Of a DNA stretch of 61,781 nucleotides, positions 234 to 27,113 are shown one piece after another; the stretch's first letter is position 1; each line of letters begins with the position of its first letter. The notes under the pieces were generated by a model that made no database searches, was not told the DNA's origin, and saw nothing but the letters and a program-made list of their open reading frames with translations. The stretch is from NCBI GenBank assembly GCA_036389795.1, contig DASVWD010000079.1, forward strand, positions 1 through 61,781, in the 5' to 3' direction. Source of the stretch: Longimicrobium sp. (GTDB taxonomy: Bacteria; Gemmatimonadota; Gemmatimonadetes; Longimicrobiales; Longimicrobiaceae). The position numbers and the translations under genes were made by a program.

Positions 234-416
234 CTACTGCAGCGGGGGCGGCGGGCAGTAGACGGCCAGGTACGACGCTCCCGTGGTGCAGCCGCAGGAG
301 GCGTACGGGGGCGTGGGCGCCAGGTACGCCTGCACCGTGCCGGCCTCCTGCGCGCCGGCGGCGGTGGAGAACGACTCCACGGCCAGCGTCTCGACGTCGA
401 GCTTCAGCTTCTTCAT
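234..416 (-). CDS. RiPP-like precursor peptide (pinensin-type leader), 60 aa
   Basis: This short gene encodes a leader-core peptide. The leader begins MKKLKLDVETLAVESF, the LxLDxLxVESF pattern also seen in the five tandem peptides at 23290-25046. The C-terminal half is rich in Thr, Ser, Tyr and Pro with three Cys (SCGCTTG, then VYC near the end). Such leaders are known from pinensin-family lanthipeptide precursors, in which Ser/Thr are dehydrated and cyclised with Cys; that chemistry is an inference here. The start at 416 is favoured over longer in-frame starts because AGGAGAGG lies 5 nt upstream. A good promoter sits at 472-500 and a hairpin follows the stop, so it is probably a single-gene transcript. 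No modifying enzyme is visible nearby. Confidence 0.75.
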   Translation of the reverse strand: MKKLKLDVETLAVESFSTAAGAQEAGTVQAYLAPTPPYASCGCTTGASYLAVYCPPPPLQ

Positions 417-8276: not shown

Positions 8277-8287
8277 CAACGGCTTGC

Positions 8288-8360
8288 GCGCCGGTAGCTC
8301 AGTCGGTAGAGCAGCGGACTTTTAATCCGTTGGCCGTGGGTTCGAGTCCCACCCGGCGCA
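8288..8360 (+). tRNA. tRNA-Lys(TTT)
   Basis: A 73-nt cloverleaf. The acceptor arm GCGCCGG pairs with CCGGCGC, with discriminator A at 8360. The D arm is GCTC/GAGC, the anticodon stem GCGGA/TCCGT encloses loop CTTTTAA with anticodon TTT, and the T arm is GTGGG TTCGAGT CCCAC. No CCA is encoded. The 3' half of this gene is imperfectly repeated at 9490-9523. Confidence 0.95.
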
Positions 8361-8487
8361 TTCTCGTAAGCCACACCAAGCACTTGGCTGCTGGACTCTG
8401 TTGTCGTTCCCTCGATGAATGCGTCTCAACCCTGGCCTGCTGATCATCTCCTTTTCCTACTATCATGCGTCGTCATAACAAGGAATA

Positions 8488-9489
8488 ATGACTCTCGTCT
8501 GTGATAAATGCGGTGCGGGCATCCCCGAGGGTGCGCGCTTCTGTCCGTCGTGCGCCGATCCCGTGACGCAGGCGGATTACGTGTCGGCGCGGCCTGTTCT
8601 CGCGACGGAGAGGGTGCAGCTGGTCTGTCCAAGATGCCGGACGCAGGCGGTGTACGTGGTCGGCGGAGACGGGTCAGCGGCTCTGACGTGCTCAGGCTGC
8701 GGCCAGCCGTTCGCCACGCGCGTGGTGCGGATCCGCTCGAAGAACTCGCGAGGGAACAAGAAGGCCAGCACTCGTGACTTCACCGTACGCGCACTCGACC
8801 TGGCGGGGCGGGACGAGTTGTTCCAGTTCCAGTCGTATGGATGGAACGACTTCGAGCTGAAGTCCAAGGACCTGGCTGCGTTCAATTATGCGGACGGCAG
8901 GTTGCGCGGTGTTCAGAATCTCACTCTCGGCCGCTTCCTCGACCTCACCCCACCCAAATCGTACCTGGGCGTAGGATGCCTCATCGTGGGACTCATCCTG
9001 CTGGGGCTGTTCATGGCCCTCTGCTCCGCGATCGAATCCGTCTCGGATGCCGGGTCACGAACGGAAGCCGGAAGTCCGGTCTACCCGGCGGCTGATCTTC
9101 CGCAAACCGCTCCCCCCACGGCGGAAACGTTCTACATCCACGGCGAATTGAACGTGCGTACCGCTCCGAACCGGAACGCCGCTCTCGTTCGGACTCTTGG
9201 CTACGGCGAGCAGGTGCGGCTCGGGCCCAAGGACTCCAACGGATGGGCTCCGGCTTACGATGTGAGCGGCGCGCAGGAGGGATACGTCTACCGTGCGAGT
9301 GAGCTGGTGCGCTCAACTCCTCCTTCGCAGCGTCGGCGGTCGGTGTCCGGCGGCTCCGGTTCGTCCAGCACCAGTTCGCGCCGGAGCAGCGCTGAGTCGC
9401 GAGGCTACTACACAGGTCCGCGGGGTGGTTGCTACACGTATTCGGCGAGCGGGCGGAAGCGGTACGTGGACCGGTCCTACTGTAACTGA
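8488..9489 (+). CDS. Zinc-ribbon / SH3-domain membrane protein
   Basis: A 333-residue protein. The N-terminus has a zinc ribbon (CDKCG and CPSC, residues ~5-22) and a second four-Cys ribbon (CPRC and CSGCG, residues ~48-72). A hydrophobic segment (YLGVGCLIVGLILLGLFMAL) is near residues 156-175. An SH3-like domain follows (NVRTAPNRNAALVRTLGYG, then GYVYRASELV), then a Ser/Arg linker and a C-terminal box GPRGGCYTYSASGRKRYVD, a motif that recurs at the ends of diverse bacterial proteins. The role is unknown. AAGGA lies 6 nt before the ATG. Base composition is less GC-rich than its neighbours, and the gene is bracketed by tRNA-Lys and a tRNA 3' fragment, which suggests a small acquired segment. 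Confidence 0.8.
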   Translation: MTLVCDKCGAGIPEGARFCPSCADPVTQADYVSARPVLATERVQLVCPRCRTQAVYVVGGDGSAALTCSGCGQPFATRVVRIRSKNSRGNKKASTRDFTVRALDLAGRDELFQFQSYGWNDFELKSKDLAAFNYADGRLRGVQNLTLGRFLDLTPPKSYLGVGCLIVGLILLGLFMALCSAIESVSDAGSRTEAGSPVYPAADLPQTAPPTAETFYIHGELNVRTAPNRNAALVRTLGYGEQVRLGPKDSNGWAPAYDVSGAQEGYVYRASELVRSTPPSQRRRSVSGGSGSSSTSSRRSSAESRGYYTGPRGGCYTYSASGRKRYVDRSYCN

Positions 9490-9523
9490 TCCGTTGGCTG
9501 TGGGTTCGAGTCCACACGGCCCG
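9490..9523 (+). repeat. tRNA-Lys 3'-end-like fragment (candidate attachment-site remnant)
   Basis: The sequence starting TCCGTTGGCTGTGGGTTCGA and ending CACGGCCCG matches the 3' half of the tRNA-Lys gene (8326-8360) with a few substitutions and one deletion in the T stem. It begins immediately after the stop codon at 9489. It cannot fold as a tRNA. Direct repeats of a tRNA 3' end are the usual footprint of site-specific integration. Confidence 0.6.
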
Positions 9524-9525
9524 TG

Positions 9526-9564
9526 ATCCCCAGGCTGCGCGAAACGCGCGGCCTGGGGATTTTT
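9526..9564 (+). terminator. Rho-independent terminator
   Basis: ATCCCCAGGC pairs with GCCTGGGGAT around a GC-rich loop that also self-pairs (GCGC/GCGC), followed directly by five T. It ends the zinc-ribbon/SH3 gene. A close relative of the stem recurs at 27982-28019. Confidence 0.85.
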
Positions 9565-9610
9565 CGCCCGGTTGCGGGTGATGACGCGGCGTGTCGTTCA
9601 TTTGCCCTCC

Positions 9611-9627
9611 ATAACGCAGTGCGTTAT
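9611..9627. promoter_or_regulatory. Palindromic operator candidate upstream of the ArsA-type ATPase
   Basis: ATAACGCA-G-TGCGTTAT is a perfect 8-bp palindrome with a single central base, 108 nt before the ATPase start. A 14/17 match lies at 27655-27671, 39 nt before phaR. Two such sites suggest a shared dimeric repressor; its identity is unknown. Confidence 0.45.
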
Positions 9628-9734
9628 TTTACGGAGCACTCAGGGCCGCGCGGCCACGCTGCCGCGGGGGTTCTTCCCCTGGATGGGCACGAAGCGCGGA
9701 CCGGCGTTCGCCGGCGCCCGAAAGGAAGATCGAG

Positions 9735-10907
9735 ATGGCCACACGGATCCTGCTGTTCACCGGCAAGGGCGGAGTGGGGAAGACCACCTGCGCGGCCGCG
9801 ACCGCCCTGCGCGCGGCGGAGATGGGGTACCGCACGCTGGTGCTCTCGGCCGACCCGGCGCACTCCCTGGCCGACGCGCTCGACCGCAGGCTGGGGCCCG
9901 AGCCCGAGCCGGTTGTCCCCAACCTGTGGGCCCAGGAGGTCGATCTCTACTACTCGATGAAGAAGTACTGGGGGAACATGCGCGAGCTGATGCTCACCGT
10001 GTTCCGCTGGCAGGGGGTCGACGCCGTCGCCGCCGAGGAGATGGCGGCGCTGCCGGGGATGAACGAGGGCTCGGTGCTGCTGTGGCTGGAGCAGTTCCAC
10101 CGCTCGGGCGACTACGACGTGATCGTGGTCGACAGCGCGCCCACCGGCGAGACGCTCACCCTGCTCACCCTCCCCCAGGCCACGCAGTGGTGGATGCAGA
10201 AGGCCTTCCCCTTCCAGAAGGCGGCGATCAAGACCGCCGGCTTCGCGCTGCGCAAGACCACCGGCATCCCGCTCGACAGGGGCTACGAGGAGCTGAACCG
10301 GCTCTTCGACAGGCTGCGCTCGATCCAGGACGTGCTGGGCAACAGCGACGTCAGTTCGGTGCGCCTGGTCTGCAACCCCGAGAAGATGGTGATCGAGGAG
10401 GCCAGGCGCGCCTACACCTACCTCCAGCTCTACGGCTACGGCGTCGACGCGGTCATCGTGAACCGCGTGCTCCCCGAGGAGGGGACCGGCCGCGTGCTGG
10501 CGCCGTACGTGAAGGCGCAGACGAAGTACCTGGACGAGATCGAGCGCTCCTTCGCGCCGCTGCCGATCCTGCGCGTGCCCCACGGCGGGCGGGAGGTGTT
10601 CGGCCTCGACCTGCTGCGCGAGATCGGCCGGACGCTGTACGGCGACGGCGATCCGACCGCGCTGATGTACAGCGGCCAGACCTACCGCGTGAGCGCCGAG
10701 GGCGAGGAGTACGTGCTGGAGCTCAGGCTCCCCTTCGCGCACGAGGGCGAGGTCTCGGCCCGCCACGCGGGCGACCAGCTCGTGATCCAGCTCGCCAACC
10801 AGCGCCGCAACTACCTGTTGCCCCGCTTCCTCGCCTACTATACTCTGGGGGACGCCCGCGTACGGAACGGCTGGCTGCGCGCGAGGTTCGCGCAGGCCCC
10901 GGCCTGA
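9735..10907 (+). CDS. ArsA/GET3-family ATPase with C-terminal HSP20-like domain
   Basis: A 390-residue P-loop ATPase. The deviant Walker A GKGGVGKTTC is at residues ~10-19, SADPAHSLADAL follows as in the family, and the switch motif DSAPTGET lies near residue 133. The last ~70 residues (EYVLELRLPFAHEGEVSARH onward) form a beta-rich domain like the alpha-crystallin domain appended to many bacterial ArsA proteins. Despite the name, most such bacterial ATPases are not shown to pump arsenite, and no ars genes are nearby; membrane-protein or client handling is another possibility. AAGGA lies 9 nt upstream of the ATG. A palindrome at 9611-9627 may regulate it, and two strong hairpins follow the stop. 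Confidence 0.9.
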   Translation: MATRILLFTGKGGVGKTTCAAATALRAAEMGYRTLVLSADPAHSLADALDRRLGPEPEPVVPNLWAQEVDLYYSMKKYWGNMRELMLTVFRWQGVDAVAAEEMAALPGMNEGSVLLWLEQFHRSGDYDVIVVDSAPTGETLTLLTLPQATQWWMQKAFPFQKAAIKTAGFALRKTTGIPLDRGYEELNRLFDRLRSIQDVLGNSDVSSVRLVCNPEKMVIEEARRAYTYLQLYGYGVDAVIVNRVLPEEGTGRVLAPYVKAQTKYLDEIERSFAPLPILRVPHGGREVFGLDLLREIGRTLYGDGDPTALMYSGQTYRVSAEGEEYVLELRLPFAHEGEVSARHAGDQLVIQLANQRRNYLLPRFLAYYTLGDARVRNGWLRARFAQAPA

Positions 10908-10914
10908 TCGCGGC

Positions 10915-11000
10915 GGGTCCCCGGCGCGCGCCCGGGGACCCGATCGCGATGCAGCCGCGGAAAGCGAAGCGGCCGTGCCTCCCCGGGCACGGCCGCCTTT
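10915..11000. terminator. Two hairpins between the ATPase and HMG-CoA reductase genes
   Basis: GGGTCCCCGG/CCGGGGACCC (10915-10941) and GCGGCCGTGCC/GGCACGGCCGC (10969-10996), the second followed by CTTTCC. They probably terminate ATPase transcription and separate it from the reductase gene at 11049. Confidence 0.6.
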
Positions 11001-11048
11001 CCGCCCCTTCGCTCCACCTCTGCCCCAATCCGCCCCGGAGGCCCGCCG

Positions 11049-12587
11049 ATGTTCGTCCCGAGCCTGTTGCTCAAGCAGCTCTACACGTTCGGCTCCCTGA
11101 AGAACTCCGAAGAAGGGGTGCAGTTCTCCATCAAGAACCGCCTGAGCGACGCCACGGTCACGGGCTTACGGGGGATCCGCATCAACGGCCAGGAGGTCCC
11201 GCTGCACGACGTGGAGGTGCGCCTCGACGACACCGTGCTGCAGTCGCACCAGATCACCCCGGGGCAGCCGCTCGCCTTTCCGCTCCGCCGCACGCTGCAG
11301 ATCGTGGCGAAGCGCCCCGCGCTTCCGCTGGGCAAGCACGACATCGAGCTGGCCTTCGAGGCGAAGCCGTTCGGCAGGCTCAGGCTGCAGGTGCAGGACG
11401 CCATCGCCGAGGCCGCGCCCGACCGCAGGAAGATCCCGCGCGACGAGAGCGACGACTACGCCGACGGGGCCATCCGCCGCCGCCAGGCTTTCGTGGAGGA
11501 GTTCACGGGGGCGAAGCTGCACCACGGCACGCAGTACTCGTTCGACGCCCACCTGCTCAAGGGCAACTGCGAGCACTTCACCGGCGTGGCGCAGATCCCG
11601 GTGGGCTTCGCGGGGCCGCTCACCATCCACGGCGAGCACGCGCAGGGCGAGTTCCTGATCCCCCTGGCGACGACCGAAGGAACGCTCGTCGCGAGCTACA
11701 ACCGCGGCATCCAGGTGCTGAACGCGTGCGGCGGGGTGAAGGTCACCGTCGTCGGCGACGCCATGCAGCGCGCGCCGGTGTTCGTGTTCGACGACGCGCG
11801 GCAGGGGAGGGACTTCGTGGAGTGGGTGCAGACGAACCACGCCAAGATCGCGGCCGAGGCCGAGGCCACTTCCAGCGTGGCGAAGCTGAAGTACATCGAC
11901 CACTACCTGGCCAACAAGTTCGTCTACCTGCGCTTCAACTACCACACGGGCGACGCGGCGGGGCAGAACATGGTGGGCCGCGCCACCTTCGCCGCCTGCT
12001 CGTGGATCCTGGACCAGTACCCGGGCGTGAAGCACTTCTACCTGGAATCGAACTTCGCCACCGACAAGAAGGCGTCGCAGATCAACATCATGCGCACGCG
12101 CGGCAAGCGGGTGACGGCCGAGGCGGTGGTCAAGCGCGACGTGCTGGTGCAGCGGATGCGCGTGGAGCCCGAGAGCCTGGCGTACCACTACGGCGTCGCC
12201 AACATCGGCGCCATCCTCTCCGGCGCCAACAACAACGGCCTGCACTCGGCCAACGCCATCACCGCCATGTTCATCGCCACCGGGCAGGACGTGGCGAACG
12301 TGGCCGAGTCGAGCGCCGGCGTGATGTACTGCGAGCTGACCCCGGAGCGCGACCTGTACCTCTCCATCACCATCCCCTCGCTGATCGTGGCCACCTACGG
12401 CGGCGGTACGGGGCTCCCCACGCAGCGCGAGTACCTGGAGGTGCTGGGGTGCTGGGGGAAGGGGAAGGTGAACCGGCTGGCCGAGATCGTGGCCGGCGTG
12501 GTCCTGGCGGGCGAGCTCTCCCTCGCCTCGGCGATCTCGTCGTCGGACTGGGTCTCGAGCCACGAGCAGTACGGACGGAACAGATAG
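11049..12587 (+). CDS. Hydroxymethylglutaryl-CoA reductase with extra N-terminal domain
   Basis: A 512-residue HMG-CoA reductase, which makes or consumes mevalonate with NAD(P)H. The catalytic part has LATTEGTLVASYNRG (Glu210), TGDAAGQNM near residue 300, SNFATDKKAS (Asp339, Lys340, Lys341), GANNNGLHSANAITAMFIAT with HSAN, and a GGGTGLPTQ box. These motifs are closer to the class I (biosynthetic) type than to short class II enzymes. The first ~110 residues (LLKQLYTFGSLKN, then beta-strand-like sequence) are not part of the usual catalytic core. A GGAGG-containing leader precedes the ATG by about 8 nt. No other mevalonate-pathway gene is visible nearby, so isoprenoid supply is inferred from the family only. 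Confidence 0.93.
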   Translation: MFVPSLLLKQLYTFGSLKNSEEGVQFSIKNRLSDATVTGLRGIRINGQEVPLHDVEVRLDDTVLQSHQITPGQPLAFPLRRTLQIVAKRPALPLGKHDIELAFEAKPFGRLRLQVQDAIAEAAPDRRKIPRDESDDYADGAIRRRQAFVEEFTGAKLHHGTQYSFDAHLLKGNCEHFTGVAQIPVGFAGPLTIHGEHAQGEFLIPLATTEGTLVASYNRGIQVLNACGGVKVTVVGDAMQRAPVFVFDDARQGRDFVEWVQTNHAKIAAEAEATSSVAKLKYIDHYLANKFVYLRFNYHTGDAAGQNMVGRATFAACSWILDQYPGVKHFYLESNFATDKKASQINIMRTRGKRVTAEAVVKRDVLVQRMRVEPESLAYHYGVANIGAILSGANNNGLHSANAITAMFIATGQDVANVAESSAGVMYCELTPERDLYLSITIPSLIVATYGGGTGLPTQREYLEVLGCWGKGKVNRLAEIVAGVVLAGELSLASAISSSDWVSSHEQYGRNR

Positions 12588-12724: not shown

Positions 12725-14500
12725 ATGAATCCCACCACCATCCTCGCCCTGGTCGAGCAGGGCCTGCCGAAGAACACCACCGGCACCACAATCGCCACGA
12801 AGCGGGAGGGGCGGTGGATCGAGACGCCGCGCGCGGAGTTCAAGCGGCAGGTGGAGCTCTTCGCGTACGGGCTGCGCGACCTGGGCGTCGGCCGCGGCGA
12901 CCGCGTGGCGCTGCACGCCGAGAACAGCGCCGAGTGGCTGATCGCCGACCAGGCCGTCCTGTCGCTCGGCGCCGTCGTCGTCCCGATCTACACCACCCAG
13001 CCGGCCGACCAGATCCAGTACATCGTCGAGAACTCCGGGGCGGCGGTCTACATCGTCTCGTCCGAGAAGCTCCACAACGCCGTGGCGGGGGTCCTCGCCA
13101 GCTCGCCGTCGCTCCGGGCGGTGGTCGGCATCCGCGGCGCGTTCTCGGTGGGGATGCTCCCGTGGCAGGAGGTGCTGGCGCGCGGCGAGCGGCGAAAGGC
13201 GGAGGAGCCGGGCTTCTTCCAGGCCTCGCGCGCCGGGGTCACGCCCGGCGACCTGGCCACGCTCATCTACACGTCGGGGACCACGGGGACGCCCAAGGGG
13301 GTGATGCTCTCGCACTGGAACCTGGCGTCCAACGTCCTCTCGTCACTCGAGCGGATGCCGTGGGACATCGAGGGCGAGCGCGGGCAGAAGATCCTCTCCT
13401 ACCTCCCGCTCTCGCACGTCTTCGAGCGGATGCTGGCGTATCTGTACCTCTACATCGGCTACCCCGTCTGGTTCGTGGAGCACTTCGAGCAGATCCTGGA
13501 AGACATGCAGACCGTCCGCCCGGTGCACTTCTCCTCGGTGCCGCGGCTCTTGGAGAAGGTGCACGCGGGGATCCACAACAAGGCCGGCCAGCTCTCGGGC
13601 GCGCAGAAGAAGATCTTCCAGTGGGGGATGGCGCTCGCCGACCGCTACGACGTGGAGAAGCCGCTCGGGCTGGCCGACCGCGTGCAGTACGCGCTGGCCG
13701 ACGCGCTGGTCTACCGGAAGGTGCGCGCGCTCTTCGGCGGGAACCTGCAGGCCATCACCAGCGGCGGCGCGGCGCTGTCGAAGGAGGTGATGAACTTCAT
13801 CAACGCCATCGGCGTCTTCTGCGGGCAGGGGTACGGGCTCAGCGAGACGTCGCCGGTGATCGCCGTCTACACGAAGGGGAAGCTGCGCGCGGGCTCGGTC
13901 GGCAGCCCGATCTCGGGGGTGGAGGTGAAGATCGCCGAAGACGGGGAGATCCTGGTGCGCGGGCCCAACGTGATGCAGGGCTACTTCAGGCTCCCCGAGG
14001 CCACGGCCGAGGTGATGACGGAGGACGGCTGGTTCCGCACCGGCGACATCGGCCACCTGGACGCCGACGGGCAGCTCTTCATCACCGACCGCAAGAAGGA
14101 GCTGATGAAGCTCTCCACGGGGAAGTACATCGCCCCGCAGCCGATCGAGCGGCGGCTGGCGGCGTCGCGCTTCATCGAGCAGGCGGTGGTGATCGGCAAC
14201 AGCCGCCAGTTCTGCACCGCGCTGGTGGTGATCGACGTGGCGGCCATCACCAGCTGGTTCGGCGAGACGGGGACTCCCGCGCCCGAGGACGTGGCGAGCC
14301 ACCCGGGCGTGAAGGAGCTGATCCAGCGCGAGATCGACGCCGTGAACGAAGACCTGCCGCCCTGGGAGCAGGTGAAGAAGTTCGCGCTGGTCAGGCGCCC
14401 GTGGAGCATCGAGACCGGCGAGCTGACGCCCACGCTCAAGATCAAGCGCCGCGTGGTGCACGAGCGGCACGCGGACGAGATCCACGCGCTGTACAAGTAG
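12725..14500 (+). CDS. Long-chain acyl-CoA synthetase (AMP-forming)
   Basis: A 591-residue ANL-superfamily enzyme that activates a carboxylic acid with ATP and couples it to CoA. The P-loop TLIYTSGTTGTPKGVMLSH is near residues 178-197, the A5 motif GYGLSETSP near 370, and the adenylate-binding GWFRTGDIGHLDADG near 435 is followed by ITDRKKELMKLSTGKYIAP. Length and the LSTGKYIAP signature fit long-chain FadD15-like ligases. The start codon directly abuts the heptamer-repeat tract and has no clear Shine-Dalgarno, so the true start could differ slightly. It is read in the same direction as the UbiB-like kinase and acyltransferase genes, a plausible lipid-metabolism neighbourhood. Confidence 0.92.
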   Translation: MNPTTILALVEQGLPKNTTGTTIATKREGRWIETPRAEFKRQVELFAYGLRDLGVGRGDRVALHAENSAEWLIADQAVLSLGAVVVPIYTTQPADQIQYIVENSGAAVYIVSSEKLHNAVAGVLASSPSLRAVVGIRGAFSVGMLPWQEVLARGERRKAEEPGFFQASRAGVTPGDLATLIYTSGTTGTPKGVMLSHWNLASNVLSSLERMPWDIEGERGQKILSYLPLSHVFERMLAYLYLYIGYPVWFVEHFEQILEDMQTVRPVHFSSVPRLLEKVHAGIHNKAGQLSGAQKKIFQWGMALADRYDVEKPLGLADRVQYALADALVYRKVRALFGGNLQAITSGGAALSKEVMNFINAIGVFCGQGYGLSETSPVIAVYTKGKLRAGSVGSPISGVEVKIAEDGEILVRGPNVMQGYFRLPEATAEVMTEDGWFRTGDIGHLDADGQLFITDRKKELMKLSTGKYIAPQPIERRLAASRFIEQAVVIGNSRQFCTALVVIDVAAITSWFGETGTPAPEDVASHPGVKELIQREIDAVNEDLPPWEQVKKFALVRRPWSIETGELTPTLKIKRRVVHERHADEIHALYK

Positions 14501-14531
14501 TGCGAAGTGCGAGGTGCGAAGTGCGAAGTGA
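14501..14531. repeat. GTGCGAA-type heptamer tract
   Basis: Four near-tandem units of (A)GTGCGA(A/G) immediately after the acyl-CoA synthetase stop codon. Non-coding, same family as tracts at 12690-12722, 41269-41302 and 43278-43305. Confidence 0.7.
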
Positions 14532-14650
14532 TTTCGTAGGGGCGAGGCATGCCTCGACCGGCGGATGTCGGCCCGTGTGCGGCAGGCAGCCACTTGCGCA
14601 GATGCTGACTATGCTCGGACTCGCATGCTCGCCCCTACGGAACACATCGC
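14532..14650 (-). repeat. Palindromic dispersed element, copy A (inverted)
   Basis: A ~119-bp element whose ends are inverted repeats built on CGTAGGGGCGAGGCATGC and GCATGCTCGCCCCTACG. Its reverse complement aligns along its whole length with 39301-39419 and 52604-52720: GCGATGTGTTxCGTAGGGGC at one end, CCGCCGGTCGAGGCA near the other. Non-coding and strongly structured. It fills most of the gap before the UbiB-like gene. Confidence 0.8.
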
Positions 14651-14723
14651 CGGGTCAGGCGCGAAGCGCGCGGACGCATCCTCAGTGATGAGGTCGTCCT
14701 CTCTTCACCACCTGTAGAGGCAA

Positions 14724-16727
14724 GTGCGGCGCAAGGAGGTCCCCATCCGCCCCGCTCCCGCGCACGAGGAGCCGCCCGACGACGGTCCCGCCCGGCGCGA
14801 CGACGAGCTGCGCCTGGAGCTCGGGGACGACGCGGCGGACGAGGCCCCGGCGGACTCGCCGTCGCGCGACGAAGGGCCCCGCCTTGCCGCGTCCGACGAC
14901 GGCGAGGCGGCGACGGCCGACGCGCCGGGAGGCGGGCGGCCGATCGTCGACCCGGAAGCGACCCTCCTGGAGCCGCGCGCCGCCGTCCCCGTCCGCGAGA
15001 CGTCCACCGACGAAGCCGGGGAGGGACCTTCCCGCGCGCCCGGGCCTCCGCCCTCCGCCGCGCCGCCCCCGCCCGCGCCGCGAGCGGTGCCGTTCGTGTT
15101 CGACCCGCTGCGGCCGTACCGGGGGGTGGTGCGGCGCTTCTTCATCGTCTACCGCCACGTCCTGGGGCTGCTCGCGGGCGGCGCGGCGGCCTACGTGCGC
15201 GCGCTCCCGCGCGAGCGGCGGCACGGGCTCAAGTCGTGGTTCCCGCGGCTCACGGCGTCGGTCGTCTGGCCGTTCCTGGACCGCGACATCCGCCGCCTCC
15301 CCTTCCCGCAGCAGCTCCGGCGCCGGCTCGAGATCCTGGGGCCCACGTACATCAAGCTCGGCCAGATCATGGCCATCCGCGAGGACCTCCTCCCGCGGAG
15401 CATCACCACCGAGCTGCAGAACCTCTTCGACCGCCTCCCCGCCATCCCCTTCGCCCAGGTGCGCGAGATCATCGAGCGCAGCCTGGGGCGCCCGCTCGCG
15501 CTCAGCTTCCGCCACGTCGAAGAGCAGCCGCTGGGGTCGGCCTCCATCGCGCAGGCGCACCTGGCCGAGACGCTGGACGGCGAGCAGGTGGTGGTGAAGG
15601 TGATCAAGCCGGGCGTGCGGGAGATGATCGAGTCGGACCTGACGCTGCTGGGGATGGTGGGCGGCTTCCTCCAGTGGGTGCTCCCCCGCTACCAGCCGCG
15701 CCAGATCATCCGCGAGTTCAGCGCCTACACGCGCAAGGAGGTGGACTACACCTTCGAGGCCGACAACGCCGAGACCTTCGCCGCCAACTTCGGCGACATG
15801 CCCGACGTCGCCTTCCCGCGCATCCACCGCGCCTCGAGCGCGGCCGACGTGCTGACGATGGAGTTCATGCGCGGCTTCAAGCCCGGCTCGCCGCCCACGG
15901 AGGAGCTGACGGAGGAGGAGCGGCAGCGGGTGATCGACCTGGGGGCGGCGTCCATCATCCGCATGCTCTACCGCGACGGCTTCTTCCACGCCGACCTGCA
16001 CGCCGGCAACCTGATGATCCTGCCGGGCAAGCGGGTGCGCGTGGCCTTCATCGACCTGGGGATGGTCGGCCGCTTCGAGGAGCGCACGCGCCGGCAGATG
16101 CTGTACTACTTCCACGCGCTGGTCACCGGCGACGTGGAGGGCGCCACCCGCTACCTGGCCGACATGGCCACGGTGGGGAAGGGCGGCGACCCGCAGGGCT
16201 TCCGCCGCGCCGTGGCCGACCTGGGGCGCCGCTTCGTGAACCACGCGGCGCGCGGCGACATCTCCATCGCGCAGCTGATCCTCGAGTCCGTGGGGCTCGG
16301 CGGGCGCTACCGCGTCTTCTTCCCCGTGGAGATGACGCTGATGGTGAAGGCGCTGGTGACGTTCGAGGGGGTCGGCCGCATGCTCGACCCGCAGCTGGAC
16401 GTGGCCGCCGTCTCGCGCAAGCACGTCTCGAAGATCTTCCAGCAGCAGTTCGACCCTCGCCTCCTGCTGCGGCAGGTGCTGCGCGGCTCCCCCGAGCTGG
16501 TGGACATGGCGGTGCGGCTGCCGCAGCTGCTGTCGGCGGGGTTCAGGTTCGCCGACGAGACGCTCAACAACCGCTCTCCGCAGAACCCGCTGGCCGGGGT
16601 GCGCGGGAGCATCCTGGCCGCGGCCTGCATCGTGGGCGGGGTGCTGGCCGTCATCCAGGGGGCGTCGCCGCTGCTGTGGGGCGGGCTGTTCCTGGTGGCC
16701 GTCCTCCTCTCGCTCTTCGGCAGATGA
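14724..16727 (+). CDS. AarF/UbiB-like atypical kinase, membrane-anchored
   Basis: A 667-residue ABC1/UbiB-family protein. The first ~120 residues are Pro/Ala/acidic and probably disordered. The UbiB core then shows the family motif YIKLGQIMAIREDLLP, the PLGSASIAQAHLAE loop with VVVKVIKPG (ATP-site Lys), the catalytic HADLHAGNLMIL and IDLGMVGRF in the place of DFG. Two hydrophobic segments end the protein (ILAAACIVGGVLAVI and LLWGGLFLVAVLLSLF). Family members support ubiquinone or other isoprenoid-lipid metabolism through ATPase rather than protein-kinase activity. The start is a GTG at 14724 with AGAGG upstream. Its stop overlaps the next start (ATGA), so the two genes are translationally coupled. 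Confidence 0.9.
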   Translation: MRRKEVPIRPAPAHEEPPDDGPARRDDELRLELGDDAADEAPADSPSRDEGPRLAASDDGEAATADAPGGGRPIVDPEATLLEPRAAVPVRETSTDEAGEGPSRAPGPPPSAAPPPPAPRAVPFVFDPLRPYRGVVRRFFIVYRHVLGLLAGGAAAYVRALPRERRHGLKSWFPRLTASVVWPFLDRDIRRLPFPQQLRRRLEILGPTYIKLGQIMAIREDLLPRSITTELQNLFDRLPAIPFAQVREIIERSLGRPLALSFRHVEEQPLGSASIAQAHLAETLDGEQVVVKVIKPGVREMIESDLTLLGMVGGFLQWVLPRYQPRQIIREFSAYTRKEVDYTFEADNAETFAANFGDMPDVAFPRIHRASSAADVLTMEFMRGFKPGSPPTEELTEEERQRVIDLGAASIIRMLYRDGFFHADLHAGNLMILPGKRVRVAFIDLGMVGRFEERTRRQMLYYFHALVTGDVEGATRYLADMATVGKGGDPQGFRRAVADLGRRFVNHAARGDISIAQLILESVGLGGRYRVFFPVEMTLMVKALVTFEGVGRMLDPQLDVAAVSRKHVSKIFQQQFDPRLLLRQVLRGSPELVDMAVRLPQLLSAGFRFADETLNNRSPQNPLAGVRGSILAAACIVGGVLAVIQGASPLLWGGLFLVAVLLSLFGR

Positions 16728-21495: not shown

Positions 21496-21732
21496 ATGCC
21501 GACCGTATTGCGTAGCGGCCCCTACAGGTTTTTCTTTTACGCAGGTGATCGTGAGGAGCCGCCGCACGTACACGTTGAGCGCGAGAAGAACCGGGCGAAG
21601 TTCTGGCTCGATCCCGTGCGGATGCAGGACAGCGGCGGCTTCAGCGGAATCGAGCTGAATCGAATCTCCGCCCTGGTGGAAGCTCATCGGGACCAGTTGC
21701 TTAGAGCCTGGAATGACTACTTCAACGAGTGA
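21496..21732 (+). CDS. DUF4160 protein (toxin-antitoxin-like)
   Basis: A 78-residue protein that matches DUF4160: GPYRFFFYAGDREEPPHVHV near the start, then AKFWLDPV and the helical end RISALVEAHRDQLLRAWNDY. DUF4160 genes are typically paired with DUF2442 genes, as here, and the pair is usually regarded as a toxin-antitoxin-like module; which partner is harmful is not established for this pair. AGGAGGG lies 5 nt before the ATG. It overlaps the DUF2442 gene by 20 nt. Confidence 0.85.
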   Translation: MPTVLRSGPYRFFFYAGDREEPPHVHVEREKNRAKFWLDPVRMQDSGGFSGIELNRISALVEAHRDQLLRAWNDYFNE

Positions 21733-22018
21733 GCTTCGTGTCCCCGAAGCTACCGGCGTGACGGTAACGGACGAAGCTCTCACCGTCGAATTGGTCGACG
21801 GGCGCGTTCTATCGGTGCCGCTGGTGTGGTATCCGCGCCTCGCGCACGGGAGTCCCGATGAGCGTAACCGCTGGCGGCTCATCGGTCGGGGTGAAGGAAT
21901 TCATTGGCCCGACCTGGATGAGGACATCAGCGTCGCGAACCTTCTGGCGGGGAAGCCTTCGGGCGAGAGCCAGCGTTCTCTCAAGCGTTGGTTGGAGCTC
22001 CGCCGCGGTGCCGCCTGA
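21713..22018 (+). CDS. DUF2442 protein, partner of DUF4160
   Basis: A 101-residue protein with the DUF2442 features VELVDGRVLSVPLVWYPRL and RWRLIGRGEGIHWPDLDEDI, ending ISVANLLAGKPSGES. It begins inside the DUF4160 gene, a translationally coupled arrangement usual for these pairs. A decayed copy of this gene lies about 3.3 kb upstream (18425-18702), showing that the module was once duplicated or rearranged around the DUF262 gene. Confidence 0.85.
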   Translation: MTTSTSELRVPEATGVTVTDEALTVELVDGRVLSVPLVWYPRLAHGSPDERNRWRLIGRGEGIHWPDLDEDISVANLLAGKPSGESQRSLKRWLELRRGAA

Positions 22019-22031
22019 TAGATAAGAACAA

Positions 22032-22064
22032 CGAAGCCCCGGCCGCGCATCGGCCGGGGCTTCG
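22032..22064 (+). terminator. Terminator hairpin, family GAAGCCCCGGCC (copy 1)
   Basis: CGAAGCCCCGGCCG and its complement with a short CGCAT loop, 14 nt after the DUF2442 stop. Near-identical hairpins recur at 22828-22860, 23517-23550 and 25063-25095, all in this accessory stretch. Confidence 0.75.
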
Positions 22065-22805: not shown

Positions 22806-22827
22806 AGCGTGCACACGCGGGAACGAC

Positions 22828-22860
22828 GAAGCCCCGGCCGCGCATCGGCCGGGGCTTCTT
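22828..22860 (+). terminator. Terminator hairpin, copy 2
   Basis: GAAGCCCCGGCCG with its complement around CGCAT, followed by TTT, 22 nt after the protease stop. It also forms the left end of the duplicated block that carries the tandem peptides. Confidence 0.8.
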
Positions 22861-22861
22861 T

Positions 22862-23289
22862 GTCCAGAGATAGGACGATTCAGGCAGCGGATCGGTCGAT
22901 GCGGTCCAGCACGGCACCCAGGCGGTCGAGCGGAGACGGCTAGCGCCGGCGCGCCTGTGTCGCGTGGCGAGGTGTCCGCGGGACCGGGGCGGATCGCGGC
23001 GTCGGTGTCCCGGTGAGACCGGCGCGCCTCACGCTCCGGAACCCTCGCGTCCCGTCAAGAATTTGCTTCAACCCTTTCAGGAATCGTGCGTTATCGCGGC
23101 GGAGCGCGTCCGCCGGGGTCGCGGTCCGCCCGTTGCGAGCCCGCCCCCGCGCGAGTGGCGGGCGGCTACGACGCCGGCGGTCCGCACCAGGCCGCGGGTG
23201 GTTGACCGTGCGGGTGAATGCCGCCCGGGCCCCGCTCGCCGGCTGGATCATACGTCGGAACATTTTCATCCTGCAACGGGGAGGTACCG
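22862..23289 (+). repeat. Duplicated block 1: patatin 3' scrap plus peptide upstream region
   Basis: This gap holds no gene. Its first ~75 nt (GGTCGATGCGGTCCAGCACG and flanks, to ~22937) match the 3' end of the patatin gene (25120-25170). The rest aligns with 23630-23971 at high identity, including CGCGGGACCGG, CGGCGTCGGTGTCCC, GCCGGGGTCGCGGTCCGCCC and a shared CATCCTGCAACG just before the peptide start. The alignment shows a ~680-bp tandem segmental duplication (22828-23508 and 23517-24187). Confidence 0.8.
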
Positions 23290-23508
23290 ATGGCGAAGCT
23301 CAGGCTGGATCTGGACGCGCTGGAGGTGGAGTCGTTCGAGGCCCTGTGCGAAGGCCTGCACGTTCCCGGCACCGTAAAGGCCAACCAGGACGCAGGCGAC
23401 CGTGCCGGAGATGCCGCGGACGACGCCAGGGATGCCGCCACGTACACCCCCTCGTGCGGGAAAACGGCCTGTGCCACCTGCTACACGTGTTTCGGACCCA
23501 ACTGCTGA
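23290..23508 (+). CDS. Tandem Cys-rich RiPP-like precursor, peptide 1 (72 aa)
   Basis: Leader MAKLRLDLDALEVESFEALC carries the LxLDxLxVESF pattern of pinensin-type lanthipeptide leaders. It is followed by GLHVPGTV, an Ala/Asp-rich helical spacer (AGDRAGDAADDARDAAT) and a Cys-rich core with Cys at 56, 61, 64, 67 and 72, giving C-x4-C-x2-C-x2-C-x4-C. The core also has Thr and Ser, so thioether crosslinking is possible, but the spacing could equally bind metal; function is inferred. The start at 23290 is set by GGGGAGG 8 nt upstream and by identical starts in all five copies. A terminator follows the stop. No modifying enzyme or transporter is in the window. Confidence 0.8.
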   Translation: MAKLRLDLDALEVESFEALCEGLHVPGTVKANQDAGDRAGDAADDARDAATYTPSCGKTACATCYTCFGPNC

Positions 23509-23516
23509 ACGAACAA

Positions 23517-23550
23517 CGAAGCCCGCAGCCGCGCATCGGCCGGGGCTTCG
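23517..23550 (+). terminator. Terminator hairpin, copy 3
   Basis: GAAGCCCGCAGCCG/CGGCCGGGGCTTC with one mismatch, followed by TCGTTTT, 8 nt after peptide 1. It separates peptide 1 from the other four. Confidence 0.75.
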
Positions 23551-23551
23551 T

Positions 23552-23971
23552 CGTTTTCCAGAGGCAGGACTATCTACGCGGCGGATCCGTCGATGCGTCC
23601 AGCACGGCGCCAGGCTGTCGAGCGGAGACGGCGGCTGGTGTCGGCGCGCCGACACCAGCGTGGCGAGGTCGTCCGCGGGACCGGTCGGATCGCGGCGTCG
23701 GTGTCCCGCTGAGACCGGCACGTCTCACGTTCCAGAACTTCCGCGTTTCGTCAAGGAATTCGCTTCAAATCTTTCAGGAACAGTGCATTATGGGCGGCGG
23801 AGCCTGCCCGCCGGGGTCGCGGTCCGCCCGTTGCGAGCCCGCCCCCGCGCGAGTGGCGGGCGGCTATGATGCCGGCGGTCGAGGCCGGTTCCGACCGTAC
23901 GGGTGAATGCCGTCCGGGCCCCTCGCAGGCTGGGTAATGAGAGCGTTTCATCCTGCAACGAAGAGGTACCG
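23552..23971 (+). repeat. Duplicated block 2: patatin 3' scrap plus peptide upstream region
   Basis: Second copy of the block at 22862-23289. It begins with TACGCGGCGGATCCGTCGAT, matching the patatin 3' end, and ends in CATCCTGCAACG before peptide 2. No intact gene is seen. It differs from block 1 by scattered substitutions and small indels, so the duplication is not brand new. Confidence 0.8.
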
Positions 23972-24187
23972 ATGGCGAAGCTCAAGCTGAACCTGGAGGC
24001 GCTGGAGGTGGAGTCGTTCGAGATCGTGTCCGCAGGTCCTCACCCGCCTGGCACCGTCAGGGCCAACCAGGACGCAGACGACCGCGCCAAAGATGCCGCG
24101 GACAACGCCAGGTCCGCCGCCACGTGCTTCGGCCGCTCCTGCCAGCCCTCGCACTGTGACTCCTGCGACACGTGTGAGGACTGCTGA
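23972..24187 (+). CDS. Tandem Cys-rich RiPP-like precursor, peptide 2 (71 aa)
   Basis: Leader type B (MAKLKLNLEALEVESFEIVS, then GPHPPGTV and ANQDADDRAKDAADNARS). The core has Cys at 52, 57, 62, 65, 68 and 71 (CFGRSCQPSHC, then DSCDTCEDC). It shares the C-x2-C-x2-C heart of peptide 1 but adds an upstream Cys and shortens the tail. AAGAGG precedes the ATG by 7 nt. It lies 68 nt upstream of peptide 3 with no terminator between, so peptides 2-5 may be one transcript. Confidence 0.8.
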   Translation: MAKLKLNLEALEVESFEIVSAGPHPPGTVRANQDADDRAKDAADNARSAATCFGRSCQPSHCDSCDTCEDC

Positions 24188-24254
24188 GGTCCGGTGGCTC
24201 GTGCCGGCTGGATCATGCGCCGGAGCATTTTCATCCTGCAACGGGAGGCATCCG

Positions 24255-24470
24255 ATGGCGAAGCTCAGGCTGAACCTGGAGGCGCTGGAGGTGGAGTCGT
24301 TCGAGATCGTGTCCGCAGGTCCTCACCCGCCCGGCACCGTCAGGGCCAACCAGGACGCAGACGATCGCGCCAAAGATGCCGCGGACAACGCCAGGACCGC
24401 CGCCACGTGCTTCGGCCGCTCCTGCCAGCCCTCGCACTGTGACTCCTGCGACACGTGTAAGGACTGCTGA
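24255..24470 (+). CDS. Tandem Cys-rich RiPP-like precursor, peptide 3 (71 aa)
   Basis: Nearly identical to peptide 2: the leader differs at Arg5 (Lys in peptide 2), the spacer at Thr49 (Ser in peptide 2), and the core ends in CDTCKDC instead of CDTCEDC. The upstream 45 nt (GGCTGGATCATGCGCCGGAG, CATTTTCATCCTGCAACGGG) are shared with the other copies. This is the most recent-looking duplicate in the array. Confidence 0.8.
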   Translation: MAKLRLNLEALEVESFEIVSAGPHPPGTVRANQDADDRAKDAADNARTAATCFGRSCQPSHCDSCDTCKDC

Positions 24471-24537
24471 GGTCCGGTGGCCCGCGCCGGCTGGATCGTG
24501 CGCCGGAGCATTTTCATCCTGCAACGGGGAGGTACCG

Positions 24538-24753
24538 ATGGCGAAGCTCAGGCTGGACCTGGACGCGCTGAAGGTGGAATCGTTCGAAGCCCTGTGCGAA
24601 GGCCCGCACGTCCTCGGCACCGTGAGGGCCAACCAGGACGCAGGCGACCGTGCCGGAGATGCCGCGGATGCCGCCAGGGATGCCGCCACGTGCTTCGGCA
24701 TCTCCTGCCAGCCCTCGTACTGTGAATCCTGCGACACGTGTGAGGACTGCTGA
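24538..24753 (+). CDS. Tandem Cys-rich RiPP-like precursor, peptide 4 (71 aa), mosaic
   Basis: The leader and spacer are of type A (LRLDLDALKVESFEALC, AGDRAGDAADAARDAAT), as in peptides 1 and 5, but the core is of the peptide 2/3 type (CFGISCQPSYC, then ESCDTCEDC). It is therefore a chimera with a switch near residue 50, at the leader-core boundary. GGGGAGG precedes the ATG by 8 nt. Intergenic spacing to peptide 3 is 67 nt and to peptide 5 is 68 nt. Confidence 0.8.
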   Translation: MAKLRLDLDALKVESFEALCEGPHVLGTVRANQDAGDRAGDAADAARDAATCFGISCQPSYCESCDTCEDC

Positions 24754-24821
24754 GGTCCGGTGGCTCGTGGGCCGGCCGGTTCATGCGCCGGAGCATTCAT
24801 CCTGCAACGGGAGAGGTACCG

Positions 24822-25046
24822 ATGGCGAAGCTCAGGCTGGACCTGGACGCGCTGAAGGTGGAATCGTTCGAAGCCCTGTGCGAAGGCCTGCACGTCCCCG
24901 GCACCGTGAGGGCCAACCAGGACGCGGGCGACCGTGCCGGAGACGCCGCGGATGCCGCCAGGGACGCCGCCACGAACGCCGGCCCCACCTGCGCGCCCTC
25001 GAACTGTTCCGCCTGCGGCACCTGCTACGAACGCAACTGTGCGTGA
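24822..25046 (+). CDS. Tandem Cys-rich RiPP-like precursor, peptide 5 (74 aa)
   Basis: Type A leader nearly identical to peptide 4. The core has Cys at 57, 62, 65, 68 and 73 (TCAPSNC, SACGTC, YERNCA), the same C-x4-C-x2-C-x2-C-x4-C spacing as peptide 1, with different residues between. The start at 24822 follows GAGAGG. It is the last of the array and ends just before a terminator and the convergent patatin gene. Confidence 0.8.
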   Translation: MAKLRLDLDALKVESFEALCEGLHVPGTVRANQDAGDRAGDAADAARDAATNAGPTCAPSNCSACGTCYERNCA

Positions 25047-25062
25047 TCGTCCGGGCGAACAA

Positions 25063-25095
25063 CGAAGCCCCGGCCGCGCATCGGCCGGGGCTTCG
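25063..25095. terminator. Terminator hairpin, copy 4 (bidirectional)
   Basis: CGAAGCCCCGGCCG with its complement around CGCAT, then TCGTCGTT. It lies between the convergent peptide 5 and patatin genes and could serve both. With the adjoining patatin 3' end it is the apparent source of the duplicated block borders at 22828 and 23517. Confidence 0.8.
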
Positions 25096-25119
25096 TCGTT
25101 CGTCCAGAGGCAGGACAGT

Positions 25120-26361
25120 CTACGCGGCGGACCCGTCGATGCGGTCCAGGACGGCGCCCAGGCGGTCGAGCACGCCCCGGATCTCGCCGGCGACGCCGCG
25201 CACGGTGCGGGGCCCGGGGGCGTCCTCCTCGAACAGCACGCGGTGCCCGTCGTCCAGCACCTCGGGGCGCAGGCGCATCCCTCGCTTCGCCAGCTTCTCC
25301 CCGATCTCCTCGCGGCGCTCGCGCAGGTGCGCCAGGGTGCGGGCGTAGGCGTGCTCGCACACCTCGCGGCGGTTGGCCGAGGAGAAGATGTTGGAGAAGA
25401 ACATCCGGTGGTCGGCCAGGTCCGGCTCCACCAGGATCACGTCGGCGTCCGGGTAGGTGTGGCGGTAGCTGCGGAAGCCCGTCCCCATCCGCGAGTGGAT
25501 GGCGGTGCGGAAGGTCTGCGAGAGCACCGCCGGCAGCCCGTAGTCCACCAGGTGCCTCGGCGCGCGGCCGCTGCCGTTCTTCCCGTGCCCGTTCACGTCG
25601 ACGGGGACGATAGGGTTCACGCAGAAGAGCAGGTCGGCGCCCTCGTCCAGCGCCACGCTGGCGTTCAGCGTGCGCCGCGCCACCCCGTCGATGTAGTGCT
25701 CGCCGCCGATCTCCACCGGGCAGTAGAGGCCGGGGAGCGAGATCGACGCCTGTACCGCCCTGCTGATCGGGACGTGGTCGTGCCCCGCCGCGCCGAAGGT
25801 CACCAGCTCGGACGAGTCGAGCTTCACCGCCACCACGCGCAGCTCCGCCCGCAGCTTGCGGAAGTCGTTGGTCCGCCCGCGGGTGGAGAAGACGCGCGCC
25901 AGGTAGCGCTCGATCGGCGCGCTGTCGAAGACGCCCACGGGGGTGAGCGCCGCCAGCTCCACCAGCCAGCCGGCCAGCGACAGCTCCAGCGGCCGCTCGA
26001 TGCGCCGCCGGATCCAGCGGCCCACCAGGCGCGGCGCCGCGGCCACGCGCCGCACGTACTCGCGCACGGCGGGGGTGAAGAGGAGGTTCGGGTCGAGGTT
26101 GAGGAGCTCTTCGTCGGCGCGGGAGAGGATGGCGCGGGAGAGGGCGCGGGGGCCGACGCCGTTGGCCAGCAGCGAGGTGAGCACCGCGCCGGAGCTGACG
26201 CCCACGTACACGTCGGCGCGGGTGAAGTCGAGCCCCTCCACGGCGTCTTCCAGCGCGCAGAGGACGCCGATCTCGTAGAACCCGCCTTCCAGCACCCCGC
26301 CCGCCAGGGCCAGGCCGATCTTGCCGCGCGGGGCGGCCCCCGCGCCGTCGCCGTTGCTCAT
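25120..26361 (-). CDS. Patatin-like phospholipase
   Basis: A 413-residue lipid acyl hydrolase. The oxyanion loop LALAGGVLEGGFYEIG is near residues 17-32, the nucleophile elbow GVSSG gives Ser56, and the catalytic Asp is in YIDGVARRT (Asp225), completing a Ser-Asp dyad. There is no signal peptide, so it is probably cytoplasmic or membrane-peripheral. The C-terminal ~90 residues are charged and helical and end with DRLGAVLDRIDGSAA, the segment copied into the peptide array. The start at 26361 places the GG-rich loop near the N-terminus as in the family. It follows the phasin gene on the same strand with a 95-nt gap, suggesting but not proving a link to storage-granule lipid turnover. Confidence 0.9.
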   Translation of the reverse strand: MSNGDGAGAAPRGKIGLALAGGVLEGGFYEIGVLCALEDAVEGLDFTRADVYVGVSSGAVLTSLLANGVGPRALSRAILSRADEELLNLDPNLLFTPAVREYVRRVAAAPRLVGRWIRRRIERPLELSLAGWLVELAALTPVGVFDSAPIERYLARVFSTRGRTNDFRKLRAELRVVAVKLDSSELVTFGAAGHDHVPISRAVQASISLPGLYCPVEIGGEHYIDGVARRTLNASVALDEGADLLFCVNPIVPVDVNGHGKNGSGRAPRHLVDYGLPAVLSQTFRTAIHSRMGTGFRSYRHTYPDADVILVEPDLADHRMFFSNIFSSANRREVCEHAYARTLAHLRERREEIGEKLAKRGMRLRPEVLDDGHRVLFEEDAPGPRTVRGVAGEIRGVLDRLGAVLDRIDGSAA

Positions 26362-26456
26362 GGAACCGTTTACACCTCGGGCGAAAAAAGGGTGCGGATG
26401 CATGCGAGGGCTACCTCGCGCACCCGCACCCCGGCTCCCTTCCGCACGGAGCGTGC

Positions 26457-27113
26457 TTACGCCTCGTACACGAAGGTGTCCTGCACCGAGCCGTCCTTGC
26501 GGTGGACCACCAGCTCGCTGGGCCTGTGCTCGGCGGCGAGGGCGCGGGCGCGCTCCAGCGCCTCGTCCTTGGTGGGGTGCACGCTCACCGCGCGCTCGGC
26601 GCCCTGCTTCTCCACCGCCCAGCCGTCCTCGCGGGCCGTGACCGAGTACACCGACACCTGCGCGCGCTCCAGCCGGGCGATGAGCAGGTTCACGCGCTCG
26701 GTGAGCGACTCCACCTGCGCGGAGAGCCGGCCCACCTCGGCGCGGGTGGGCACGCCCAGCCTGCCGAGCGCGTCGACCATGGGGTCGTAGACGGTCGTCT
26801 CCACCTTCTCCACCGCCTCCTCGCGCCGGGCCTCCACCTCGTCCTTGAGCGCGTCGAAGCGCTCGCGGCCGCGCTTCTCCATCGTCTCGCCGCGCCGGAC
26901 CAGCGTCTCGCCCTGCTTCACCAGGCGGTCGTAGAGCGCGGTGCCCTCCTGCTCGGCGGTGGCCAGCGCGCCCAGCCCGGCCAGCCACACGTCGCGGCCG
27001 CGGGTGGTGACGCCGTCCGCGATCTCCTTCGGGAGCTTCACCACCCGGCCCGCCACGTTCTTCGGCAGGTCGCCCAGGCGGAAGATGGTGCTGTTCCTCG
27101 TCTGCGTGCTCAT
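26457..27113 (-). CDS. Phasin family protein with C-terminal DUF2188-like domain
   Basis: A 218-residue PHA-granule-associated protein. Residues ~30-150 are long amphipathic helices typical of phasins (DVWLAGLGALATAEQEGTAL, RGETMEKRGRERFDALKDEV, a coiled coil LSAQVESLTERVNLLIARLE). The last ~60 residues resemble DUF2188: DGWAVEKQGAERAVSVHPTK, DEALERARALA, then VVHRKDGSVQDTF. Phasins coat polyhydroxyalkanoate granules. The start overlaps the phaR stop by an ATGA, so the two genes are co-translated. PHA synthase genes are not in the window. Confidence 0.88.
   Translation of the reverse strand: MSTQTRNSTIFRLGDLPKNVAGRVVKLPKEIADGVTTRGRDVWLAGLGALATAEQEGTALYDRLVKQGETLVRRGETMEKRGRERFDALKDEVEARREEAVEKVETTVYDPMVDALGRLGVPTRAEVGRLSAQVESLTERVNLLIARLERAQVSVYSVTAREDGWAVEKQGAERAVSVHPTKDEALERARALAAEHRPSELVVHRKDGSVQDTFVYEA

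Follow-up and report, generated by a model that had tools for sequence, protein, structure and literature searches.

Five tandem Cys-rich peptide genes in a Longimicrobium genome are probable pinensin-type class I lanthipeptide precursors served by a remote enzyme set

Five short genes for Cys-rich peptides lie in tandem on a Longimicrobium contig (the window: all 61,781 nt analysed, which constitute the entire contig C79 of a 7.52 Mb, 285-contig draft genome), and they raise the question of what these peptides are and which enzymes, if any, would modify them. The initial annotation had described five genes of 71–74 codons with a shared leader, an Ala/Asp spacer and a Cys-rich core, and no LanB/LanC gene in the window. 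Both observations hold: a profile search gave no match to LanB or LanC on the contig, and the five genes are present, with all five open reading frames intact and an ATG start behind a GGAGG-like site in each. The features of the region are as follows.

234–416, reverse strand: sixth leader gene of the window, 60 aa, MKKLKLDVETLAVESFSTAAGAQEAGTVQAYLAPTPPYASCGCTTGASYLAVYCPPPPLQ; leader model A2 (see below) matches it with E = 2.2e-14
22821–22863: hairpin resembling the one 3′ of precursor 5; a weaker one at 23507–23554
23264–23546: unit 1, a diverged copy of the 283-nt unit, around precursor 1
23290–23508, forward strand: precursor 1, 72 aa; leader 1–32, spacer 33–51, core YTPSCGKTACATCYTCFGPNC
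23386–23442, forward strand: Asp/Ala spacer of precursor 1, found at the equivalent position in all five array peptides
23946–25078, forward strand: four tandem duplication units of 283–284 nt, carrying precursors 2–5
23972–24187, forward strand: precursor 2, 71 aa; core CFGRSCQPSHCDSCDTCEDC
24255–24470, forward strand: precursor 3, 71 aa; core CFGRSCQPSHCDSCDTCKDC
24538–24753, forward strand: precursor 4, 71 aa; core CFGISCQPSYCESCDTCEDC
24822–25046, forward strand: precursor 5, 74 aa; core NAGPTCAPSNCSACGTCYERNCA
25050–25108, forward strand: hairpin 3′ of precursor 5, by its position a candidate transcription terminator

The five peptides align over their whole length. The leader, with the consensus MAKL[RK]L[DN]L[DE]AL[EK]VESFE, is followed by GTV[RK]AN and then by the Asp/Ala spacer, which is absent from the genome's other precursors that we read on their contigs; we agree with the earlier remark on the unusual character of so long a spacer. 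The C-x4-C-x2-C-x2-C core spacing was also described correctly, and is extended by a fifth conserved Cys (C-x4-C-x2-C-x2-C-x2/4-C), with copies 2–4 carrying an extra Cys at the N-terminal end of the core. A consensus scan of the array, in which a terminator requires a T run, detected no terminator and no sigma-70-like promoter above chance. Orthologs of the array were found in none of 20 family relatives, and its conservation can therefore be tested among paralogs alone. Three identical 31-nt GC-rich palindromes lie near the array (22033–22063, 22828–22858 and 25064–25094), without a match in the other contigs examined; the palindrome flanks at 22859–22931 and 23557–23597 are copies of the 3′ end of a patatin-like gene (25120–26988, reverse strand). 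Upstream of the array, at 21496–22018, is a DUF4160 and DUF2442 gene pair that recalls the arrangement of toxin-antitoxin pairs.

The leader had initially been likened to that of pinensins. All five peptides do match NF038180, the NCBIfam pinensin leader family, at 11.6–18.3 bits, which leaves them outside the family by its 24-bit cut-off; 18 paralogous leaders elsewhere in the genome exceed it. Leader model A2, derived from 62 of the genome's leaders and with L, F and GTV invariant, groups the window peptides and the paralogs that pass NF038180 as one leader family, and finds at least 145 matches in the genome at E ≤ 0.001, a count that rests on 150 of 363 candidates scored and may be an undercount. 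Together with the 283-nt tandem units and the lack of the leader in the 11 LanB-less members of the family, its recurrence at so many sites places the array beyond chance. Thus, beyond what had been annotated, the window holds a sixth leader gene, and the array is a minor part of a large precursor library. No match to Nif11 was found for the window peptides.

Reading the contigs directly, we located 116 ORFs that fit the leader on 59 contigs, either single or in arrays (on C206, C259, C112, C75 and C57); ATG is the start codon of 115 of the 116, and 112 are preceded by a Shine-Dalgarno-like site, almost the only feature that upstream motif analysis found enriched. A search for dedicated tailoring enzymes beside the precursors returned no recurrent neighbours except ABC transporters. 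Precursor genes often stand at contig ends (C1, C69, C75, C119, C120, C204, C259 and C260), which suggests that assembly was interrupted by the repeats of the arrays and that more precursors exist than were counted. By A2, the number of precursors per genome among leader-bearing members of the family ranges between 1 and at least 150.

That enzymes might act from elsewhere had been foreseen, and the genome-wide search then proposed for LanB/LanC and further leader genes bears this out: besides the leaders counted above, there are candidate enzyme sets on contigs C225 and C206. The genome's only LanB, on C225, is split (LanB_N, PF04738, 3.5e-46; LanB_C, PF14028, 5.5e-41) and stands in a row with a LanC (PF05147, 4.2e-49), the combination characteristic of pinensin-type class I lanthipeptides; no precursor adjoins these three genes. 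The LanC motifs W-C-H-G and C-H-G, with zinc ligands C309, C356 and H357, are invariant across seven LanCs. The C-terminal third of LanB_N (8283–11516) contains a long low-complexity stretch rich in Ala, Pro and Glu. Downstream of 12–13 precursors, C206 encodes an ABC exporter that shares 79% identity with the in-cluster exporter of a relative, then HlyD and an S8 subtilase in which the D/H/S motifs are present. Since the draft consists of 285 contigs, C225, C206 and C79 could be nearer to each other than they appear.

Leader and LanB also go together across relatives. In the 21-genome family, LanB is present in all 10 genomes with the leader and in none of the 11 others (P = 2.8e-6, shared ancestry ignored), and both are jointly absent from other genomes of the same genus. 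Among 246 genomes of the class, LanB is found in 9/9 leader genomes versus 3/237 others over the cut-off (P = 2.8e-14, again ignoring shared ancestry). Precursor-LanB/LanC linkage, by which class I systems are recognised, is not seen in the window; for the same leader, both relatives and an Acidobacteriota MAG show it, with the 10/10 co-occurrence pointing the same way. The leader gene lies beside LanB/LanC in relatives L228, L229, L230, L234 and L237 and in L065 of the MAG, and several of these clusters include exporter, HlyD and S8 subtilase genes as well; in L065 the gene order is complete (LanB_N, LanB_C, LanC, precursor, ABC, HlyD, S8). L066, a contig of a second Acidobacteriota MAG, has the precursor, ABC, HlyD and a protein recognised as S8 by its sequence. 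A want of related leaders beside modifying enzymes in relatives had been named as grounds for dropping the precursor reading, and these clusters remove that objection.

The cores themselves look like lanthionine substrates, as judged by their sequences. Cys makes up about 17% of core residues and Thr 13%, and Ser/Thr directly precedes 54.6% of Cys as compared to 20.6 ± 1.2% in shuffled cores (106 cores, 2.6-fold). In the array, changes in leader and spacer are mostly silent (dN well below dS), while between diverged copies of the core dN (0.45–0.69) exceeds dS (0.19–0.40), values that over about 20 codons are indicative only. Despite this change, Cys 57, 62, 65, 68 and 73 and Ser/Thr 51, 56, 60 and 67 are fixed columns, and four of the five copies also have Ser/Thr at column 64. 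This pattern is consistent with five Cys acceptors and four or, with column 64, five Ser/Thr donors for thioethers.

Taken on leader, enzymes and cores, the five genes are very probably precursors of class I pinensin-type lanthipeptides, matured in trans by the one promiscuous enzyme set of the genome, and the array most likely forms a minor branch, specific to this lineage, of an extensive class I lanthipeptide library whose enzymes act in trans. Counting against this reading are the leader scores below the NF038180 cut-off and a spacer peculiar to the array among the precursors read.

Could the peptides instead be unmodified, binding metal or forming disulfides while retaining a lanthipeptide-like leader? 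The cores are rich in CxxC, there is no enzyme nearby, and metal binding by Cys-rich RiPP-like peptides is known from the MNIO-type bufferins (PMC12452194). Neither metal binding nor disulfide formation needs Ser/Thr, yet the Ser/Thr columns of the array are fixed or exchange S for T only, and Ser/Thr is enriched before Cys; furthermore, within the 21-genome family the leader never occurs without LanB. We consider this option, which the initial annotation had left standing, improbable given that related leaders adjoin LanB/LanC in relatives. We likewise consider it improbable that duplication left a decaying or silent array whose cores drift free of selection. The missing orthologs, the excess of dN over dS in the cores and the failure to find a sigma-70-like promoter would be expected of such a remnant, but all frames are intact, start codons and ribosome sites are retained, leader and spacer are constrained, and the Cys and Ser/Thr positions stay fixed while the rest of the core changes.

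Crosslinking of Cys by a radical SAM enzyme, of the sactipeptide or ranthipeptide type, had likewise been entertained. While the cores are Cys-rich and the genome has one SPASM-type radical SAM gene (on C215), the SPASM enzyme that such peptides call for shows no association with the leader across the 21 genomes (7/10 leader genomes versus 9/11 leader-free ones; P = 0.64, shared ancestry ignored), and no radical SAM protein is among those identified in the leader clusters of relatives. It is LanB, and not radical SAM/SPASM, whose distribution coincides in full with that of the leader; we rejected the radical SAM link and regard this chemistry as highly improbable. Of the original interpretation, then, leader type, remote enzymes and unusual spacer stand, and the radical SAM and unmodified options fall away.

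The genome has two further sets that might conceivably modify some of the peptides, namely two LanM with an NHLP-type peptidase/ABC exporter and HlyD on C28 (L071, L072), and a class V-like row of LxmK-like kinase, HopA1-domain protein and LanC on C285 (about 109900–113600, L069), but no pinensin-type leader gene was found beside either, and relative G212 has a class V-like LanC set without such a leader, which makes their acting on the window peptides very unlikely. A short peptide ORF (L071:16661–16876) lies between the C28 LanM genes and the exporter, and in G212 (L238) there is a gene row similar to the C285 set.

If the class I reading is correct, the split dehydratase and LanC of C225 would recognise the conserved leader, the dehydratase would convert core Ser/Thr to dehydroamino acids, and LanC would couple these to core Cys, yielding (methyl)lanthionines. 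Leader removal would probably fall to the C206 S8 subtilase, with the cut expected near GTVxx, and export of the product to the C206 ABC/HlyD pair, so that, on this prediction, one machinery would handle at least 145 variable-core precursors across the genome.

How the enzymes might find substrates scattered in this way is suggested by the LanC itself. The C225 protein (12996–15041, L070) has 681 aa, about 245 of them beyond the LanC domain, and this C-terminal extension, spanning roughly residues 440–681, is conserved in the orthologs compared. Compared with the sequences of solved structures it gave no match. Its AlphaFold model has a mean pLDDT of 84, and in a Foldseek search with the extension alone the nearest structure was TglI, the partner protein of TglHI (E = 1.7e-5), with lower-confidence matches to leader-bound TbiB1, PqqD and the LanB MibB. 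On this predicted fold, like that of TglI, TbiB1 and PqqD, we infer that the extension may be a leader-binding (RRE-like) module, differing from TglI and PqqD-like RRE proteins in that it is fused here to a cyclase. The literature searched yielded no account of a LanC fused in this way, which argues only weakly that none exists.

Among known systems, the closest are the pinensins of Chitinophaga pinensis (NF038180), made with a split LanB; the LanC of precursor family I 17, which includes pinensin, is nearest to LanM cyclase domains (PMC7268733). The Longimicrobium system shares the LxLDxLxVESF leader motif, the split LanB and, with TIGR03897 as the best NCBIfam match, a LanC that most resembles LanM cyclase domains. 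It differs in that most precursors lie apart from the enzymes and number at least 145 per genome, and in its longer, very Cys-rich cores, the window copies adding the Asp/Ala spacer and a sub-cut-off leader score. In organisation it resembles the class II prochlorosins and synechococsins, in which one synthetase serves 29 (ProcM) or 79 (SyncM) precursors (PMC9872173, PMC10783134): a conserved leader, hypervariable cores, one enzyme set (predicted here), and precursor genes dispersed as singles and tandem arrays. Unlike these, it has a class I split LanB/LanC, another leader family and an S8 subtilase as the likely protease, and its leader tracks LanB rather than occurring as a Nif11-type leader with a ProcM-type LanM; the at least 145 precursors also exceed the 79 reported for the cyanobacterial SyncM system. 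We found no earlier report of such a class I library in the literature, and a Longimicrobium genome paper lists lanthipeptide clusters with no such library among them (PMC7291104). With some hesitation, we lean towards the fuller proposal that a promiscuous class I set with a TglI/RRE-like module borne by LanC matures at least 145 precursors whose cores were diversified by selection, which would make this, to our knowledge, the largest lanthipeptide library of a single genome and the first of class I.

Relatives with 1 to at least 150 precursors make the growth of the library traceable genome by genome. With prochlorosins it has long been asked why a bacterium should maintain dozens of different ring peptides for a single enzyme, and this lineage seems to offer an independent class I case with a larger library. 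If the cyclase brings its own leader-binding module, as predicted, its action in trans would be explained, and it may lend itself to the production of ring peptides from libraries.
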